The notes under the pieces: generated by a model
Told to the model about the DNA's origin: nothing
What the model saw: the letters and a program-made list of their open reading frames with translations, nothing else
Database searches by the model: none
Program-made: the position numbers and the translations under genes
From: Planctomycetota bacterium
GTDB lineage: Bacteria > Planctomycetota > UBA1135 > GCA-002686595
Assembly (NCBI GenBank): GCA_002720975.1
Contig: PBIX01000073.1
Location: 1 to 44,435, forward strand
Reading direction: 5' to 3'
DNA: 44,435 nucleotides
Shown: in pieces, positions 225 to 11,389 of the stretch
Numbering within the stretch: the stretch's first letter is position 1
How the letters are laid out: each line of letters begins with the position of its first letter

Positions 225-242
225 CTATTTCTCGCTGGGGAG
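220..242 (-). terminator. Small hairpin around the HlyD stop codon
   Basis: CTCCCC (220-225) and GGGGAG (237-242) form a six-pair stem with an 11-nt loop enclosing the end of the HlyD gene on the minus strand. It could help end the operon transcript, but no U-run follows it, so the call is weak. Confidence 0.25.
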
Positions 243-1439
243 AATCCGAGCTCGGAGAACTTCGCCCGGCATGAACACCGCCGGGTCCCCCATCGGGACG
301 CGCAGAGCCAGCCCATAGGCGGGAGCGGCGGGGTGGGACCAAAGGCGTTCGGGAAGGAGTTCGGCCTTGGGTGAGAGGCTTGCAACCCTCGTCTCCAACG
401 ACCGTCGCTCGCCTGCCCGCAATTCAACGCCTCGACCAATCAGGGACTCTGCGCCGGCCAGTTCGGGATCAACAAAGACAACGGCCTCGCGAGCAACGTT
501 CGCCGTGACAAGCATGACTGCACGCCCGGCCATGAGGGACTGGCCCTCGCCCACATACAACACGGAGACCTGACCGTCGATCGGCGACTGCAGGTTGAGC
601 GCCTCCCGCTCCAGCTCCAGTCCCGCTATGGCCAGCTCCTGAACTCTTATCGCGGCCTCCAAGGCCCGCGTAGCGGCGGGAATCCGAGGTAGGTCCACGC
701 CCTCGGTCAACACAGGGAAGCCCTTGCGTATCTCAGCTGTACGGTCACGGGCCTGCAGCAATTCTTCCCGCTGACCGGCCAGCCGATCTGCGACGCCCCG
801 GTTCTGCTCTTCGGCCTGTCGCAGCTCTAGTTCAAGATCTGCGGCTTCTGCTTCCCAACCTGTACCGTCGGCGGCCAACTTCACCGCTCGCGTATGGCGC
901 GCGCGCAACAGGTCTGTACCCACCTGATCTGAGGCAAGCAGAACCTCAAGCTCAAGCACTCCCAGCCGCAGGTCGGACTCATCAAAGGAGGAGCGCAATA
1001 GGTCGCCCTCCATACGCATGCGCGAGGAATCGCCGTCGCTCGTGGCTTCCTGGTTAGCCAGACTCTGTGCCTGCAGATACTCCGCCTCCGCCAGTTCACG
1101 AGTGTCTGCGATCTGAGCCCGCAAGCTCAGAACCTCGGCATTCGCCGTTGCCAGGCGGGCCTCCAGTGGGCGCGGATCCAATTGAGCAACGAGCTCACCC
1201 TTGCGCACCTCTTGGAACGCCTGGACGAGGACCGCTCCGAGGATGCCTGAACTCGGCGTGGACACCTCATACTCAACAGGGGGCACCCATGCCCGGTGCT
1301 CAAGAGCAACGGGGCGGTCACGCAGCAGAGCCACGCATAGGGCGGCGCTGGCCACCCAGACCAAGCCAACCAGGGGACCGCGAACAAACGAGGTCCATCG
1401 CTGATCGAAGGGGATGGGTACTTTGGTAACGGCTGCCAT
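225..1439 (-). CDS. HlyD-family membrane-fusion / efflux adaptor protein
   Basis: This 404-aa protein looks like a periplasmic adaptor of the HlyD/AcrA type, which joins an inner-membrane transporter to an outer-membrane exit. Residues 1-20 are cytoplasmic, followed by one membrane segment (about 20-40). A first half of a biotinyl-lipoyl-like domain (about 57-95, with VRKGELVAQLDP) comes next, then a long helical coiled-coil region (about 95-285). The second lipoyl half (about 290-320, LQSPIDGQVSVLYVGEGQSL) and a beta-rich C-terminus follow. The start codon overlaps the preceding DUF4956 stop as TAATG, so the genes are translationally coupled. No transporter or outer-membrane channel gene is visible beside it. 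Family membership is secure; the cargo is unknown. Its link to a polyphosphate polymerase and DUF4956 is unusual. Confidence 0.88.
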   Translation of the reverse strand: MAAVTKVPIPFDQRWTSFVRGPLVGLVWVASAALCVALLRDRPVALEHRAWVPPVEYEVSTPSSGILGAVLVQAFQEVRKGELVAQLDPRPLEARLATANAEVLSLRAQIADTRELAEAEYLQAQSLANQEATSDGDSSRMRMEGDLLRSSFDESDLRLGVLELEVLLASDQVGTDLLRARHTRAVKLAADGTGWEAEAADLELELRQAEEQNRGVADRLAGQREELLQARDRTAEIRKGFPVLTEGVDLPRIPAATRALEAAIRVQELAIAGLELEREALNLQSPIDGQVSVLYVGEGQSLMAGRAVMLVTANVAREAVVFVDPELAGAESLIGRGVELRAGERRSLETRVASLSPKAELLPERLWSHPAAPAYGLALRVPMGDPAVFMPGEVLRARILPSEK

Positions 1440-2143
1440 TAGATTTCGACGCTCTCATCGCGCAAGACAAGTGTCACATCCCCGATTCCGTCCACACCGC
1501 GCATGTCCTGAACCAATTCGTTTCCTCGCTTGCGGTCCCTTAGGCGAACCTGCTGCACGTATTCCACCTGGTCCCCGCTGTCATGCACAGTGACGACCTT
1601 GAGTTCTTGGCAGTAGCGGGTGAAGACGCGATTCAGGAGTTCCCCCACCCCGGTACCGTCTTGTGGTCCACTCAATCGATAGGACAGATGGCCATCAAAA
1701 TGACTGCGCACTCCAAAGCGAGTGAAGTGCAGCCAAAGTGAAAGCAGGAGCAAGAACGCTCCACCCACAAGCGCTACGGCAATGCGCTGCGAGCCTATCG
1801 CCATCCCCAAGACCAGGGTCAAGAACACGAAGGCCGTATCGCGGGTGTCCTTCAGGACGTTACGGAAACGGATGATCGCCAGTGCGCCCATGAGCCCAAA
1901 GGCCGCGACAACATTGTTGCCAATGACAAACATGACCAAGGTCGCGATCACCATCAGGTAGACCAACGACTGGCAGAACGATCGGGAATACGACAGCCCC
2001 GCATGTGTCTTGGTGTAGACCCAAGCCGTCAACTGCCCCAGGGTCAAGGCCAGCAGCAGGGACAGTACGAGCCCTTGCAGGGTGGGCGGAGGCGCCATAC
2101 CCGTCGCGTCCAGCTGGCGGAATAGAGACTCGAAATCGTTCAT
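1439..2143 (-). CDS. DUF4956 family membrane protein
   Basis: A 234-aa protein with about four membrane helices in its first 140 residues and a soluble C-terminal domain. The region FGLMGALAIIRFRNVLKDTR is the conserved core I associate with DUF4956, a family of unknown biochemistry usually encoded beside VTC-type polyphosphate polymerases. The frame extends upstream to 2269, but I chose the ATG at 2143. It overlaps the polymerase stop as ATGA, and the extra 42 residues are polar and unlike the family. The protein probably works in the same membrane assembly as the neighbouring polymerase, but what it moves or anchors is not known. Confidence 0.88.
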   Translation of the reverse strand: MNDFESLFRQLDATGMAPPPTLQGLVLSLLLALTLGQLTAWVYTKTHAGLSYSRSFCQSLVYLMVIATLVMFVIGNNVVAAFGLMGALAIIRFRNVLKDTRDTAFVFLTLVLGMAIGSQRIAVALVGGAFLLLLSLWLHFTRFGVRSHFDGHLSYRLSGPQDGTGVGELLNRVFTRYCQELKVVTVHDSGDQVEYVQQVRLRDRKRGNELVQDMRGVDGIGDVTLVLRDESVEI

Positions 2144-2886
2144 TGGGCCTGACGGTGTGCCGATCCACCAAGCTCGGCGAAGGAACGGCTGAGGGAGAGG
2201 ACGTACTTGGGAATCGAGAGGCTCGTCAAGTCGAGTTGACCGACCATCGCCACGATCCAGTGCGGACAATTGTCCGTGAACTTGACCTCCAAGATCACAC
2301 CTTCAGTCGGCGTCGTTGACCATCCGGTTCCACCCAGGGACAGGTCACCATCATGTGTGGGTTTGAACATCACGTCGCTGTCGAAGGTAATCCTGACGGG
2401 ATCGCGCCCTGTGGACTCGTAGGCCTCGCGCTTGTAACGCACCCGGATGACCGAGGCCGCATCGAGGCGGCGCATCTCGTTGATGAACTCAGCGGCGCCC
2501 TCATCGGCATTCTCCAGTTTCATGCTCCCCCCCCCCAGGAGGGCCTGAACTTCCGTGCGAGAGGCGCGCGCCCGCACCTTCCGAACGACCTGGTTGGCCC
2601 GCCTCTTGATCTCCAAGTACACCGGGGTGCCCGGCTCATCGCTGTAGGCCCGGATCCGCAACTTGAACCGGTCCTTGTGCCCCTCCACCGTGGTTCTGTA
2701 GAGGTCGTGTGCCCGGGTGTCGAGATACAGGCTCGAAATCGGGTAACTGTTGTCTCGACCCAGACGTGCGAACTGGTCCGGCTGGACGAAGGGCCCAATA
2801 GCCTCACGTACGACCCTCACCTGGCTCGGGTGGAGCCAGTACTTCAACTCGAATCGGGACGAGAGGGTGCGGTCGGTGAAATCCAT
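2140..2886 (-). CDS. VTC-domain polyphosphate polymerase
   Basis: This 248-aa protein matches the VTC catalytic fold, a tunnel-shaped enzyme that builds polyphosphate from nucleotide triphosphate. Visible signatures in order are RFELKYWL near the start, YLDT followed by DRFKLRIRAY, YLEIKRR, VRYKREAYES, RITFDSDV, GVILEVKFTD and the late KY of SIPKYVLSLS. The Arg/Lys and Glu residues in these strands are the usual substrate and metal ligands. The start at 2886 gives a protein beginning just before the fold; an ATG at 2967 is also in frame but adds unrelated sequence. A TATAAT box lies 29 bases upstream. It is first in a coupled operon with DUF4956 and HlyD genes. Synthesis of polyphosphate is inferred from the family; nothing here shows the substrate. 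Confidence 0.85.
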   Translation of the reverse strand: MDFTDRTLSSRFELKYWLHPSQVRVVREAIGPFVQPDQFARLGRDNSYPISSLYLDTRAHDLYRTTVEGHKDRFKLRIRAYSDEPGTPVYLEIKRRANQVVRKVRARASRTEVQALLGGGSMKLENADEGAAEFINEMRRLDAASVIRVRYKREAYESTGRDPVRITFDSDVMFKPTHDGDLSLGGTGWSTTPTEGVILEVKFTDNCPHWIVAMVGQLDLTSLSIPKYVLSLSRSFAELGGSAHRQAQ

Positions 2887-3280
2887 GATGGGGCAAAGCC
2901 GGAGGGGGTACTCAATTATAGACGCCTCAGCCCCCTTTGGCGGGGCCTCCACGGCAGTGTGGAGCAAATTGGGACCTGAGCGGTGGCCAACACGGATCGG
3001 CCTCGGGCCCTACCGTCCGATTTGCCCGCAATTCTGGGCCTTTGCCGCACCCTAGCTTATCGCTCGGCCCCCATGGGGAGACTGCCCTGCCGGGATGGAA
3101 TTGCGAATGGGGGTCCTGAGGTTGGGGCACCAGGTGAATGGAGGCCGGGGCCGAGCAACCGCCCCTTGGCTCTGCCCCCGTGCAGGCCGAGATGGTACAC
3201 CCACCCACTACTGCCCCGCCGTGCCCTCCCCCCACCACGAACTCTTCGCCGTCGACGAAAGCGGTCCCAGCCCCTTGGCT
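2887..3280. other. Divergent intergenic region between polymerase and aminotransferase
   Basis: About 390 bases separate the two divergently read genes. The only clear signal is a TATAAT on the minus strand (2915-2920) facing the polymerase. The rest is C-rich on the plus strand with no recognisable RNA or gene. In-frame ATGs at 3095 and a GTG at 3221 could extend the aminotransferase leftward, but the sequence they would add does not look like protein. Confidence 0.5.
2915..2920 (-). promoter_or_regulatory. -10 box (TATAAT) for the polyphosphate polymerase operon
   Basis: A perfect TATAAT reads on the minus strand here, 28 bases before the chosen ATG. No good -35 hexamer is seen 16-18 bases upstream, so it would need an activator or a weak -35. 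Predicted transcription would start near 2908, giving a leader of about 22 nt. Confidence 0.4.
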
Positions 3281-4096
3281 ATGCCCCAGGGCCTCGCATC
3301 CCCTGCTCTCGTATTTGATGACCTCCCCGCTGGGGTCTACGAGGCCCTACGGACCTTCGACCACGACCGATTTGTGGGGCTCGAAGCCCACCTTGACCGT
3401 GCGCAGCGGTCCATTCGGCATTTCGGGATGTCCCCCACGTTGGGTTCCCCAGCCGTGCGCAGCGCGCTCCACACCATCGCGACGGGGTTCGCAGGCCAAG
3501 ACGCCAAGATCCGCATCGACTTTCTCACCGACGCTGCCATCACGCTGGGCACCGACTGCCGAGTGATCGCCCTTGCCAGCGAGCTCAAGCTCCCTGCTCC
3601 CGAGATTTATGCGCAGGGTGTGAGCTGCGAGTTGGTCGGCCAGTTGCGTCGCGGTCGCCCTGAGATCAAGGAGTCGAGTTGGGTTGTGGACCGCAGACCC
3701 GCAGAAGGGGGAACCCCATCCAACTATGAGTCTGTGCTCGTAAGCCCCGAAGGGCTGCTGCTGGAGGGGGTCATGAGCAACTTCTTCGTGGTGCGCGATG
3801 GCGAGGTCCTCACTGCTCCCGAGAACGGCGTGCTGCCCGGAGTCACACGCGGGATCGTCCTCGATCTGGTGCGGGGACTGGGCCTGCCCTGCAGCGAACA
3901 GCCCATTCATCAGTCAGAGATCGGGTCTCTACAAGAAGCTTTCTTCAGCACCTCGGTCCGCAGCATTGTGCCGGTAGTGAAGCTCGACGGGACGATCCTC
4001 GGGTCAGGGGCTCCAGGCCCGGTCACCCGGCAGGTGATGGAGGTCTACGGCGACTATTGTCGATCCGAAGCCCGACCTGCGGAGTCCGACGCCTGA
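3281..4096 (+). CDS. Class IV aminotransferase (branched-chain aminotransferase / aminodeoxychorismate lyase-like)
   Basis: A 271-aa PLP-dependent enzyme of fold type IV. The N-terminal strand GVYEALRTFDHDRF with EAHLDRAQRS is typical. Lys130 in EIKESSW is the likely Schiff-base lysine, and Glu162 in LEGVMSNFFVV sits 32 residues later where the family places the glutamate that contacts the PLP ring nitrogen. GVLPGVTRGIVLDL forms the phosphate-binding turn. The frame is open from 3095, and a GTG at 3221 is a fair alternative start. I prefer 3281 because it removes low-quality sequence while keeping the fold. Substrate cannot be told from the sequence: branched-chain amino acids or aminodeoxychorismate are both possible. 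Its 3' end overlaps the convergent DUF423 gene by 43 bases. Confidence 0.83.
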   Translation: MPQGLASPALVFDDLPAGVYEALRTFDHDRFVGLEAHLDRAQRSIRHFGMSPTLGSPAVRSALHTIATGFAGQDAKIRIDFLTDAAITLGTDCRVIALASELKLPAPEIYAQGVSCELVGQLRRGRPEIKESSWVVDRRPAEGGTPSNYESVLVSPEGLLLEGVMSNFFVVRDGEVLTAPENGVLPGVTRGIVLDLVRGLGLPCSEQPIHQSEIGSLQEAFFSTSVRSIVPVVKLDGTILGSGAPGPVTRQVMEVYGDYCRSEARPAESDA

Positions 4097-6357: not shown

Positions 6358-9144
6358 CTAACCGTTCTTCTCCTGCAGATCGGTGTAGATCCGCTCACGC
6401 AAGCTCTGCTCCAGATCGCTGTTGCGATCCTCGAGATCCTTGAGTTCGCGATCACTGCGGCCTTGCTGCAACCGCTCGAGGTCATCGAGTTGGGCACGCA
6501 TGTATAGGTACCGCTGATACTCGTCGAGGGCGAGATCAACACCGCTGCGGTCGAGCAGCTGAAGGGGCAAGCCGAGGGCCATGGTGCGCTTGACCAGGTT
6601 GGCCAGTTCATGGCTATCCTCGTCGCCTTCCTCTTTGGCCAGACGCGCCGTCTGATCATCGAGGACACGGAAGGAGTCCTCCCGTGCGTGAGACGAACGC
6701 CGCAGGAACTCCGCTAGCTGCGCGGTGAGAACCGAGCGGCGGTAGCCCGCGCTCGCCTCGGCGAAGCTCTGGTGCATGCCCTCCAATTTCACCACGGCGC
6801 TGGCCTCAGTGACCTCCACCTCCAGGGGATGCTGATGGGCGGCCTTGGGGGCCTTCCACCGCAGGCGAATCGTGGCCAAGGGTCCTTCCTCGGCCTTGGG
6901 ATCCTGGGCGACGTGGGTGCGTCCTCTGGACCGATGTATGACGGAGCTCTCCCCGGCGACCATGTCCAGTTCGTACAGAGCCACGACCTGATGGCCCGCT
7001 CCGATCTCGCCCGCGTCCACAGCGTCATTGCGGAAGTCCGCATCGGCAACGGTGCGGTTCTCGTAGCCCAGAAGGCGATAGGAATGTACCCGGGCAGGGT
7101 CGAACTCCACCTGGATCTTCACGTCGCCGGCGATAGGGATCAGGGCGCCAGTAAAGCGCTCGACAATCGCGCGCCGCGCTGCGGCCTCGTCATCCACGTA
7201 GTCGCAGATCCCATCGCCCTTGTTGGCGAGCTGCTCGAGAAACACGTCGTTGTGATTGTTCATGCCCACGCCGATGGTGTTCAGGTAGATGCCTGCGTCT
7301 CGATGACGGGTCACGTCCCGGTTGATTCGGTCCTGATCCGTTGTGCCGATGTTGGCCACGCCGTCGGAAAGCAGGATCACTCGGCTGTGAGCCGCGGAAT
7401 CCAGGGCGGTAAGGGCCAACTCGTAGGCCATCTTCAGGCCTGCCTCGGCATTCGTTCCGCCATTGGGAGACAGGGGGTGAAGGGCGCTCTCGATCAGGCC
7501 GCGCTCGCTGGCATCGGTCATCGGAAGCACCATGCGTGCCTCCCTGGAGTAAGCCACAAGACCGACCTTGTCACCCTCGTTCAGTTGGCCCACCAGCAGG
7601 CGGATCGCGTGCTTGACGAGCTCAAGGCGCTGGCCTTCTTCCATGGAGCCGGACACGTCGATGGCAAAGGTCAGGGACAGGGGCTTGCGCTCGCTGGCAC
7701 TTACCTCCTGTCCGCGGATGCCCACGCGCAGCATCAGGCGCCCCTCTTTGCCACCAAACAGACTGGGTGCCAGCTCCGTGTGAATGGCAAGGGCTCCCTC
7801 GGTTGGAGTGGGAAGGTCGGGCTTGGCGTAGTTGACGAACTCTTCAGTGCGGATCTGGGCTTTTGTGGGAAGCCGTCTTTCTTCCAGGTAGCGACGGGCC
7901 AGGGCGTAGCTGGCCGTATCCACGTCCGCGGCAAAGGTCGACAAACGGTCCTGCTGCGTAACAACAAAAGAGTTATCGCCCCAGAAGCGGAAGAACATAT
8001 CTCGCGGGGACTCCCCGGGCCGACGTCTGCATTCGCGATAGATGCGCTGGGAGTGGCGATCCGCCAGTTCCTGCAGCTCATCGACCGAGAGCCTCCGGCG
8101 CTTCGCGGAGACCTCTACCTCTACGTCACCGAGGTAGCCCAGGGCTTCCAGCTGCGACCCCACCTTGAGTGCAAGCTCCCTGGCGACACGAGGGTTTCCC
8201 GCCGTGGACACACGCCCATCGGCCAACTCCCGGCTGGCCGTCTCGCCGGCCTCTGCCCTTCGCTCTGTTTTCCCTTTCTTCCCTCCACCCAGGTAGGCGG
8301 GGGCACCTGCCTCTGCGAGCGGAACACCGTCCGTCAGATCGGCTTCAAGCTCCTGGAGGTTGCGCTCATGATCCTCGATGTCGATACCCGCTCGCCCATA
8401 AAAATGGTCGGATCCGGTGGTGGTCTCCACCGGGTTTATCGACGGTCTCCGTTCCGTGCCCGGGGGCCGTCCTGGGGATTGAGCCTGCCCAAGTGGTTTC
8501 ACAGAGACCGCAGCACCTGGGGCCGCGGGGCCGGAAGGTGATTGTCCATGGCCGCCTCCACCTCCGCCCGCAGGCACCTGCACACCCAAGGTCTCCAGTG
8601 AACCGGAAGCCGCCAGACCATACTCAGCCTGCCACCCCTCCTCGATTCCTGCCTCGGCACCCTCTGGAACCTCCACAGCAGCCAGACCTACGAACGCTTC
8701 ATCGAGAAGCTTGGCTCTAAAGCGAGCAGTCTCCACCGTGGCGGGCATGGGAGCATCCGAGCGAGCCACGTCCACTGTGGCCTCCGACATGGACTGGTCG
8801 CGTAGGGCAAGCACGCCCAACACGCCGCCCAGAGCCATCACGATACCGGCAGCCGCACGCAAGACGTGCGAGGCATACCAGGGGCGCGCAGATTCAACGG
8901 AAACGATCTGACCCGACGTGGCGGCAGCGAGCAGCGAAGACATGGCCTCGCCCGACAGGCTCATGCTGTCCCCCAGCCCCTGCTTCACGAGGCCAATCGT
9001 CTGTTCAAGCTCTACTCGTTGAACGCGTAATTCGGTGCTGGCCGCCAAGGCCGTCTCGATCTCCAAGGTCTGCTCCTTGGAAGTCTCGCCGAGAATGTAG
9101 GCGCACAACAGCTCATGCATTGAATCGTGGTCGTTTGCGTTCAT
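6358..9144 (-). CDS. Anti-sigma-like / YfbK-type VWA-domain membrane protein
   Basis: A 928-aa protein in three parts. Residues 1-60 resemble the start of an anti-sigma factor (LLCAYILGETSKEQ then a helical stretch) but have no zinc HxxxCxxC motif. A membrane helix follows at about 94-115, then a low-complexity Gly/Pro linker (about 190-235). From about 385 it matches YfbK: FWGDNSFVVTQQDRLSTFAA, then DVDTASYALARRYL, then a VWA domain with the metal site DVSGS at 496-500 and later PNGGTNAEAG, then a DUF3520-like tail with SYRLLGYENR. VWA domains bind partner proteins through a metal. The start at 9144 has a strong AAGGAG seven bases upstream and overlaps the sigma gene stop as ATGA. Coupling to a sigma factor suggests the N-terminus holds that sigma at the membrane; this is inference. 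Confidence 0.85.
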   Translation of the reverse strand: MNANDHDSMHELLCAYILGETSKEQTLEIETALAASTELRVQRVELEQTIGLVKQGLGDSMSLSGEAMSSLLAAATSGQIVSVESARPWYASHVLRAAAGIVMALGGVLGVLALRDQSMSEATVDVARSDAPMPATVETARFRAKLLDEAFVGLAAVEVPEGAEAGIEEGWQAEYGLAASGSLETLGVQVPAGGGGGGHGQSPSGPAAPGAAVSVKPLGQAQSPGRPPGTERRPSINPVETTTGSDHFYGRAGIDIEDHERNLQELEADLTDGVPLAEAGAPAYLGGGKKGKTERRAEAGETASRELADGRVSTAGNPRVARELALKVGSQLEALGYLGDVEVEVSAKRRRLSVDELQELADRHSQRIYRECRRRPGESPRDMFFRFWGDNSFVVTQQDRLSTFAADVDTASYALARRYLEERRLPTKAQIRTEEFVNYAKPDLPTPTEGALAIHTELAPSLFGGKEGRLMLRVGIRGQEVSASERKPLSLTFAIDVSGSMEEGQRLELVKHAIRLLVGQLNEGDKVGLVAYSREARMVLPMTDASERGLIESALHPLSPNGGTNAEAGLKMAYELALTALDSAAHSRVILLSDGVANIGTTDQDRINRDVTRHRDAGIYLNTIGVGMNNHNDVFLEQLANKGDGICDYVDDEAAARRAIVERFTGALIPIAGDVKIQVEFDPARVHSYRLLGYENRTVADADFRNDAVDAGEIGAGHQVVALYELDMVAGESSVIHRSRGRTHVAQDPKAEEGPLATIRLRWKAPKAAHQHPLEVEVTEASAVVKLEGMHQSFAEASAGYRRSVLTAQLAEFLRRSSHAREDSFRVLDDQTARLAKEEGDEDSHELANLVKRTMALGLPLQLLDRSGVDLALDEYQRYLYMRAQLDDLERLQQGRSDRELKDLEDRNSDLEQSLRERIYTDLQEKNG

Positions 9145-9755
9145 GATAGTTCTCCTTGAGCCAGACCCAATCCCAGGTCGGACTCTCCACCGAGTAGAGG
9201 TCCAAGTTCGACGCAGAGCGCCTTGAGGCCCACACTGACCAGCCATCCAACCGTGCCCACCTTCTTGCCGGTGATCTCACTGATCTCCCGGTAGCTCTTC
9301 TCGGCCAATAGCCTCAGAACCAGCACCTCGCGCTGGTCCTCGGGTAGCCGTCCCAGGGAACGCTCGACGGCCTGGCGGGTGTCCCCCGCTTCGACCTCGA
9401 GAATCCCGCCGGTGTGGCGGTCGGGTTGAGCGACGCTGCGCTCACGGCGCTTGCGTCGGGTTTCGGATCGGATGACGTCCATGCAGAGATTCCTCGTGAC
9501 CTTGTATAGCCAGGATGAGAGGTGGGCGCGCTCGACGTCGGCGTCCCCGAGGACAGTCTCGGGAATGACCGGCGGCGATTGAGCCAGCCTCATGAAGGCC
9601 TCTTGCACCACGTCTTCAAAAGCACTCCCCCGGCCCAGAAGCCCACGCGCGAGGCGCAACAGCTCCCCTTGATGGCCCTCGACGAGGGTCACAAAGGCAG
9701 TGGGGTCCCCGGAGCGGTGACGCTCCAGAAGGACGGAGGAAGAATCGAAAGGCAT
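9141..9755 (-). CDS. ECF-type RNA polymerase sigma factor
   Basis: A 204-aa group 4 sigma factor. Region 2 shows FEDVVQEAFMRLAQ and SSWLYKVTRNLCMDVIRSE. A basic linker follows, then region 4 with LGRLPEDQREVLVLRLLAEK and the helix-turn-helix SYREISEITGKKVGTVGWLV. It directs RNA polymerase to a dedicated promoter set and is probably held inactive by the product of the next gene, whose start overlaps this stop (ATGA). Start choice is uncertain: ATGs at 9755 and 9770 are both possible and neither has a Shine-Dalgarno sequence. The frame extends to 9872 without protein-like sequence. Confidence 0.88.
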   Translation of the reverse strand: MPFDSSSVLLERHRSGDPTAFVTLVEGHQGELLRLARGLLGRGSAFEDVVQEAFMRLAQSPPVIPETVLGDADVERAHLSSWLYKVTRNLCMDVIRSETRRKRRERSVAQPDRHTGGILEVEAGDTRQAVERSLGRLPEDQREVLVLRLLAEKSYREISEITGKKVGTVGWLVSVGLKALCVELGPLLGGESDLGLGLAQGELS

Positions 9756-10087: not shown

Positions 10088-11389
10088 TCACGTCTTTGTG
10101 ATCTCCTTGATAGCGGCGACCAGTCGTAGGTGGGCGGAGCGAGCTTCGTCGCTTAGCTCGTCCTCGCCCATCAGGTCGCGCTGTTCGTGGGGGTCATCCA
10201 CCAGGTCGAAGAAACGGTCACGCCCCGTGAGCACGTTTTGCTGCAGCTTGAATCGTTTCCCGCGCACTGCGACCCACCATCTCTTCTTGTCGACAACGTG
10301 GTTGGGCTCGAAGCGCTCGGCGTAGAGTAGGTCGCGCGGACCCTCGCTGCTGGGGTCGTTTAGTAGTCCCATCAGACTGCGCCCATCCATGGGCCGATCG
10401 GCGGGGAGGACCTCGTGCGCATCCATGCCGAACAGTTCCGCCACGGTTGGTAGCAGATCGACCGTCGAGACCAGTGCATCGCAGACGGCGCCCTCTGCCT
10501 GGACCCCCGCTCCAGCGACGATCAGAGGAATGTTGAGCGACCCCTCGAACAGGGTCCCCTTGCCGTGCGAGGGTACGAATGGAGGCTCGACCGCGGGCCG
10601 AGGCGTACCGTTGTCCCCCAGAACGATCACGGTCGTGAGTGCACGTACTGCCGGGTCCAGGGTGGCCAGGAGACGACCAACTTCATGGTCGGCCGCCTCG
10701 ATCGCAGCCTTGTGTCGGGCGGCGTCACTGTCGAGCTCCTGGTTGTGCAGAGACGCCGGCGGCTCGTGAAAGGGGGCGTGGGCGGCGTGCAGGGGGAGAT
10801 AGAGGAACCAGGGCTCCTCGCCGACTGTGCTAATCCAGGCCAGGGCGTCGTTCACCGTGTCGATCGTCGCGTAGACCTGTATCCTGACCTCGTCACCGTC
10901 GACGATTTTGGTGAACCCGTTGTAGGTCAGTGGGTTGCCCATGGTGAGGGAGGCGTGCTCAAAGCCCTGGTCGCGGGGATGATCGTCTCCCTGCTCGAAG
11001 CTCGCGAGGTGCCACTTGCCGCAGGCCGCAGTGCGGATGCGGCCCTTCGACCCGGCACGCAAGACTTCGGGCAGGGTCCACTCCTCGAGTTCAAGGCCGC
11101 GTGCCGCCTGTCCGTGTTCAATGTTCTTACCGAGGCCGGTGCGGTAACCGTAGCGACCGGTCAGAAGTGCGGCGCGGCTCGGGCTGCAGTAAGGCTGGGC
11201 CCATGCACGGGTGAAACGCACGCCCATGGCAGCTAGGCGATCGAAGGTAGGTGTCGCGGGTGGGTCGGCTGCCAAGCCGTAGCAGGCCACGCGTTCGACG
11301 CCAACGTCGTCGAGCAGGACCAACACGATGTTGCGGTCCTGCGCGGTGGCCATGGAGGCCGCAATGACAAGTGCTAACAGTCGCTGCAC
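10088..11389 (-). CDS. Sulfatase (type I, formylglycine-dependent), exported
   Basis: A 433-aa secreted sulfatase. The signal peptide ends near AMATAQ-like residues 14-17. All key elements are present: metal ligands Asp27/Asp28 in LLDDVG, the modification motif CSPSRAALLTGR with Cys68 (converted to formylglycine), GKWHL at 124-128, the histidines of LHAAHAPF at 201-204, Asp259/Asn260 in LGDNGTP, and Lys277 in HGKGTLFEGS. It should hydrolyse sulfate esters in the periplasm or outside, for example on polysaccharides; the substrate is unknown. The start is a GTG at 11389, which fits the signal peptide. A TATACT lies seven bases upstream, so the mRNA may be leaderless. It is divergent from a second, degenerate sulfatase. 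Confidence 0.9.
   Translation of the reverse strand: MQRLLALVIAASMATAQDRNIVLVLLDDVGVERVACYGLAADPPATPTFDRLAAMGVRFTRAWAQPYCSPSRAALLTGRYGYRTGLGKNIEHGQAARGLELEEWTLPEVLRAGSKGRIRTAACGKWHLASFEQGDDHPRDQGFEHASLTMGNPLTYNGFTKIVDGDEVRIQVYATIDTVNDALAWISTVGEEPWFLYLPLHAAHAPFHEPPASLHNQELDSDAARHKAAIEAADHEVGRLLATLDPAVRALTTVIVLGDNGTPRPAVEPPFVPSHGKGTLFEGSLNIPLIVAGAGVQAEGAVCDALVSTVDLLPTVAELFGMDAHEVLPADRPMDGRSLMGLLNDPSSEGPRDLLYAERFEPNHVVDKKRWWVAVRGKRFKLQQNVLTGRDRFFDLVDDPHEQRDLMGEDELSDEARSAHLRLVAAIKEITKT

Follow-up and report, generated by a model that had tools for sequence, protein, structure and literature searches.

Why is the gene for a HlyD-type periplasmic adaptor coupled, in a planctomycete, to genes for a VTC-domain protein and a DUF4956 membrane protein? 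The question is raised by contig PBIX01000073.1 of the Planctomycetota bacterium assembly GCA_002720975.1, of which positions 1 to 44,435 (the whole stretch analysed) are called the window here. We find the triad of genes to be a real and tightly kept module that is widespread within one phylum, and we suggest, tentatively, that it exports polyphosphate while the chain is being made. The genes and their overlaps are as follows.

2140..2886, minus strand: VTC-domain (triphosphate tunnel metalloenzyme) protein, 248 amino acids (aa), PF09359 at E 5.7e-38
1439..2143, minus strand: DUF4956 membrane protein, 234 aa, PF16316 at E 1.1e-13
225..1439, minus strand: HlyD/EmrA-like periplasmic adaptor, 404 aa, HlyD_3 (PF13437) at E 9.7e-6, over the cut-off
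2140..2143, minus strand: ATGA start/stop overlap of VTC and DUF4956
1437..1441, minus strand: TAATG stop/start overlap of DUF4956 and HlyD

The Pfam scores of all three proteins exceed the family cut-offs; together with the coordinates, they bear out the description of three coupled genes with ATGA and TAATG overlaps in an earlier note on this DNA. The same note held that a HlyD gene found in close relatives without the other two would speak against the coupling. At E ≤ 0.001, 27 of 61 related genomes (the window's own included) have a match to the VTC query and 24 have one to the HlyD query. A stricter limit of E ≤ 1.3e-7 leaves 16 HlyD matches. Fourteen of these lie in full triads, and the other two are at contig ends: DUF4956 and HlyD stand at a contig edge in G037; in G022 one contig ends at HlyD and a second breaks off within VTC. 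The coupling thus withstands this comparison. The remaining 12 HlyD matches (E 1.2e-6 or worse, mostly short) include one triad, in G059; the other 11 were left out of the neighbourhood count. Near the window, 14 of 15 loci have a DUF4956-HlyD spacing that lies between a 14 nt overlap and a 2 nt gap; in the fifteenth (L070) the start is unsure.

The HlyD profile (A1, 16 proteins) and the VTC profile (A2) were each run over 392 Planctomycetota genomes, with about four HlyD candidates scored per genome, a depth at which rare sets may be missed. The triad, which the earlier note had proposed to look for in other genomes, holds 30 of the 31 HlyD matches of at least 136 bits, each standing directly after VTC-DUF4956. 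In 29 of the 31, VTC is on the same contig and the order is VTC-DUF4956-HlyD. In G161 the triad is broken across two contigs: VTC, DUF4956 and the first 40 HlyD codons close one of them, and the HlyD match on the other runs off its end. The sole exception is G382. Among the matches listed below 126 bits, only that of G292 (74 bits) belongs to a triad. VTC matches occur in 102 of the 392 genomes and DUF4956 matches in 101; the neighbourhoods of all 44 VTC matches of at least 196 bits were examined, and 30 of them have HlyD and 14 do not.

A tree of the joined VTC and DUF4956 proteins covers 65 loci, of which 38 carry HlyD and 27 lack it (three of the 68 VTC loci were omitted, as their partners were missing or short). 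One branch parts the 38 from the 27, with bootstrap/SH-aLRT support of 94/95; the split was found in 94% of 200 bootstrap trees, and some of the HlyD-less proteins sit on long branches. When labels were shuffled, a mean of 21 changes was needed, and none of 500 shuffles was as low as the observed tree. HlyD was therefore gained once by VTC-DUF4956, and no loss is seen among the 38 loci. Many of the HlyD-bearing loci were found via HlyD, a bias that favours this result, and the 44 VTC matches found by VTC alone agree with it. A chance neighbourhood is ruled out by the tree and by the recurrence of one gene order at 30 of the 31 strong HlyD matches.

HlyD genes outside triads show what normally occupies the neighbouring position. 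Thirteen such loci (L152 and L154-L165, 91-155 bits) served as controls. In all nine that were tested, the gene after HlyD encodes a transporter (ABC in eight, MFS in one); the nine exclude L152, L156 (at a contig edge, where an upstream helicase gene was tested), L162 and L164. VTC-DUF4956 therefore holds the slot of the transporter, and a HlyD gene in this phylum usually stands beside what moves or makes its cargo. The earlier note had also suggested looking for a transporter in the same operon, and none was found there: home-made profiles (a single sequence for MFS) found MFS in none of the 38 triad stretches and ABC in two, both outside the operon, RND not being scanned. The lack of a classical pump in the operon would also fit a HlyD protein that serves a transporter encoded elsewhere and is merely co-regulated with VTC-DUF4956, for example under phosphate or envelope stress, as adaptors can be shared. 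However, the 38 loci show no loss or separation of the genes, and the paralogues have their own pump as the next gene; we regard this explanation as very improbable.

The features of the VTC protein point to a polymerase. The PF09359 tunnel domain spans the whole length (positions 2-231 of 235), and no transmembrane or hydrophobic segment is present in the window protein. A profile of 25 relatives matches yeast Vtc4 (3g3q) at 1.3e-23, ahead of Vtc2 (6.2e-13) and Vtc3. Ten residues (K15, R77, R79, E92, K94, R153, R165, E200, K202 and K227) are invariant in all 25 sequences. The window residues K15, K94, R153, R165 and K227 align with those that we take to be K200, K281, R361, R373 and K458 of Vtc4, and R77, R79 and E200 align with Vtc4 R264, R266 and E426 (chain 5iiq, in which the index is the usual Vtc4 numbering plus 3). 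The triple change R264A/R266A/E426N inactivates Vtc4 (PMC9911596). With the Vtc4 catalytic residues intact, the window protein is likely a polyphosphate polymerase. PPK1, named in a review as the main bacterial polyphosphate enzyme (PMC10657179), was found as PF02503 in 38 of the 61 relatives. It was not found in the three species of the window's genus (G000, G001 and G002) or in the triad genomes G009, G011, G051 and G053, all of these genomes being 85-92% complete. Because PPK1 was not found in its three genomes, VTC may be the only polyphosphate polymerase of the genus, PPK2 not having been searched. Directly after VTC-DUF4956 at one HlyD-less locus, L086, lies an additional CYTH-like gene (10226-11200, E 0.0013).

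DUF4956 has about four to five hydrophobic helices, with hydrophobic segments within residues 17-143. Residues R92 and R94 are basic in all 25 sequences, and K98 in 24 of them. An AlphaFold2 (AF2) model, made from three sequences (the window's and those of L060 and L061, two Planctomycetota metagenome-assembled genomes), has low confidence (pLDDT 55.2 overall); it places five long helices in the region of residues 17-143, and only its C-terminal domain (70-80) is usable. This domain is ACT-like, with a Foldseek match to the ACT domain 2ko1 at 6.4e-4. An ACT-like C-terminal domain is presumably shared with MgtC/SapB proteins, to which DUF4956 also has a weak MgtC match (0.009) far below the family cut-offs. 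We propose that DUF4956 is the inner-membrane path for polyphosphate.

The HlyD protein matches the NCBIfam models RND_mfp (1.3e-11) and EmrA family (4.5e-10), and a profile of 16 sequences finds EmrA (4tko) as the best solved relative (9.9e-25 over 294 columns), the alignment running through the hairpin and the second lipoyl half into the barrel. With a single N-terminal membrane anchor at residues 17-42, an alpha-hairpin, a split lipoyl domain and a beta-barrel, the sequence has the full adaptor build; the AF2 model (pLDDT 48.6, again from three sequences) is too poor to confirm the fold. HlyD adaptors with an anchor, hairpin and lipoyl domain are known to form bridges to outer-membrane channels. 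The features of the three parts agree with the roles of polymerase, membrane path and periplasmic adaptor, but fall short of proof.

The reading that we favour, judged from sequence and gene order and held tentatively at slightly under an even chance, is synthesis-coupled polyphosphate export. VTC, with its Vtc4-like active site, would make polyphosphate from ATP at the cytoplasmic face; DUF4956 would take the chain across the inner membrane; and HlyD, anchored there beside DUF4956, would carry it on through the periplasm. The destination might be an outer-membrane exit encoded elsewhere, or surface proteins with CotH or lamin-tail (LTD) domains, whose genes are often neighbours. Export to the envelope, raised in the earlier note as a possibility, is strengthened by the co-occurrence of the triad at 30 of 31 strong matches and by the single gain on the tree. 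A bolder version, possible but doubtful, is a trans-envelope polyphosphate secretion machine in which VTC-DUF4956 takes the place of the pump in a tripartite exporter, chain growth drives the polymer across the inner membrane and via the adaptor to the surface, and CotH or lamin-tail proteins use or bind it there.

CotH and/or LTD genes lie near 22 of the 38 triads versus none of the 13 control HlyD loci (Fisher p 1.8e-4; scanned stretches unequal, about 7-20 kb, and profiles built from Pfam-verified domains, some supplied by six of the scanned triads). They also lie near 22 of the 27 HlyD-less VTC loci. CotH itself is near at least 15 of the 38 triads, a lower bound because Pfam showed CotH in two proteins that the profiles had listed as LTD only (L143 and L065). 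The earlier note saw HlyD as standing in for CotH, and this does not hold: CotH directly precedes the triad in G041, G044, G053, G055 and G058, and is divergent beside it in G056 and convergent in G059. HlyD as a CotH substitute is ruled out, since both co-occur in several relatives. At the HlyD-less loci of family f71 and of G175 (L189, L192-L194 and L196), CotH lies between DUF4956 and VTC.

These neighbours would suit a delivery of polyphosphate by VTC-DUF4956 that stops in the periplasm, without outer-membrane export, HlyD being a scaffold through which, for example, a phosphate donor is fed to secreted CotH-like kinases. Several of the CotH/LTD proteins near triads begin with a signal-peptide-like stretch (by a crude rule), the operon has no outer-membrane gene, and a set of CotH, polymerase and DUF4956 is known from Gram-positive bacteria (PMC7112168). 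Against periplasmic delivery, 16 of the 38 triad stretches, the window included, have no CotH or LTD gene, and adaptors of this build are known bridges to outer-membrane channels; we consider it unlikely. No CotH/LTD gene was found near the triad in the window's genus, and the three CotH matches in the window's genome are on three other contigs.

The single exception among the strong HlyD matches bears on another rival. L152 (G382:C256, 4624-8307) holds the closest non-triad HlyD; its next genes encode a TackOD1-GGDEF protein and, after it, a GT2 polymer-synthase-like glycosyltransferase, possibly a synthase-type exopolysaccharide operon. This GT2 neighbour counts in favour of synthesis-coupled export, but would also fit a system in which VTC adds phosphate chains to a lipid carrier, polysaccharide or protein and DUF4956-HlyD export the modified product; so would the related Gram-positive sets that sit with a Pel exopolysaccharide operon (PMC7112168). 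However, the VTC profile matches Vtc4 more strongly than Vtc2 or Vtc3 and the Vtc4 catalytic residues are kept, and the window neighbours are an aminotransferase and DUF423, with no polysaccharide synthase among the annotated triad flanks (part of the flanking genes being annotated). Export of a modified product is, in our view, quite unlikely.

Outside Planctomycetota, plasmid and phage records were searched by protein. Six plasmid records match P0002, six match P0001, and four phage-collection records (from human faecal samples, unannotated) match P0002. None of the four plasmid loci examined has the full triad. A Planococcus plasmid carries VTC-DUF4956-CotH without HlyD, and the Gram-positive and actinobacterial VTC-DUF4956 loci L168 and L169 gave no HlyD match. 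On a Hymenobacter volaticus plasmid (L166, 4715-7955), a HlyD-like gene (NCBIfam HlyD, 6.3e-6), DUF4956 and TolC (OEP, 5.3e-41) stand in a row. This row, and the lack of a HlyD match at L168 and L169, count in favour of synthesis-coupled export. On Sinorhizobium meliloti psymA (L167, 4245-6615), a caspase-domain (Peptidase_C14) gene directly precedes DUF4956; a phosphodiester glycosidase (NAGPA) gene is nearby, and no VTC match was found there.

Several points weigh against synthesis-coupled export. The outer-membrane step is its weakest link: the operon has no outer-membrane channel gene, and the OEP genes of the genome lie elsewhere, two of the three strong ones being followed, no more than two genes on, by ORFs (open reading frames) of more than 1,000 aa, unannotated and of a size that fits RND pumps. 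The Hymenobacter locus, which has TolC, is without VTC, and its adaptor is far from A1 (hhalign probability 2.4); it and the G382 case are one each. The triad stretches lacking CotH and LTD genes, counted above, count here too. Sequence searches link DUF4956 to no solved structure, and its own model is poor. Planctomycetota also have VTC-DUF4956 pairs without HlyD, and some genomes (G011, G055, G196 and G276) hold both kinds; VTC-DUF4956 therefore works without an adaptor. DUF2490, tabulated beside a B. thetaiotaomicron DUF4956 gene (PMC10434189), was considered as a dedicated outer-membrane partner and rejected: it has matches in six of the 61 relatives, all on contigs without triads.

The limits of the operon follow from its flanks. 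The nearest gene upstream of VTC encodes a class IV aminotransferase (3095-4096) and is divergent, across the following stretch.

2887..3094, no strand assigned: intergenic stretch from VTC to the divergent aminotransferase gene, where a promoter is expected

Because of this divergent gene, VTC is first and HlyD last in the operon, and no upstream part is missing. The left edge of the window is thus the 3' side of the operon, and the contig (C76, in a genome of 3.58 Mb) begins at base 1 of the window. In a sister genome (G002) the contig continues; the next same-strand ORF, about 180 bp past HlyD, encodes 472 aa and is without any Pfam family. The earlier suggestion that the operon runs on leftward, with a transporter, accordingly finds no backing at this 3' end. 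The ORFs flanking the triad in the window encode the aminotransferase and DUF423. Farther along (6358-9246, minus strand) is a gene for a large VWA/YfbK-type protein with a long N-terminal extension and no visible relation to the triad.

If synthesis-coupled export is correct, a Vtc4-like polymerase, a membrane protein and an adaptor would make up a small, testable polymer-export system and a second polyphosphate route beside PPK1. DUF4956, a widespread family without known function, would gain a role, and the co-occurrence of CotH kinases and VTC proteins would be partly explained. For the yeast VTC complex, it has been established how polyphosphate, a long and highly charged chain, crosses a membrane (PMC9911596), and a review describes the secretory mechanism of a polyphosphate-secreting amoeba as uncharacterised (PMC10657179). 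We found no paper that describes a gene set of HlyD together with VTC or DUF4956, most subscription papers being outside the search.

Several known systems can be compared with the triad. Gram-positive pel operons carry an accessory set of CotH, polyphosphate polymerase and DUF4956 (-DUF4832) (PMC7112168). As in the triad, a VTC-type polymerase adjoins DUF4956, and CotH is close in many triad relatives; the passages of that account dealing with the set describe no HlyD and place it beside pel, whereas HlyD is fixed in the triad and CotH is not adjacent in the window. The yeast VTC complex (3g3q, 5iiq) likewise pairs a Vtc4-like tunnel domain with a membrane part, and couples synthesis with translocation through a channel lined with basic residues (PMC9911596). 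In the triad, by contrast, the polymerase has a gene of its own, apart from that of the membrane part, and a periplasmic adaptor is added; no SPX domain was found in it, and no sequence relation of DUF4956 to Vtc1.

The EmrA-type adaptors of tripartite pumps have the same domain order as the triad HlyD, but no MFS, ABC or outer-membrane gene was found in the triad operon. In synthase-dependent exopolysaccharide secretion, as in alginate Alg8/Alg44, a polymer synthase is coupled to an adaptor-like periplasmic protein. The HlyD and GT2 genes of G382 look alike in this respect; the triad differs in having no GT2, and its polymer would be inorganic polyphosphate.

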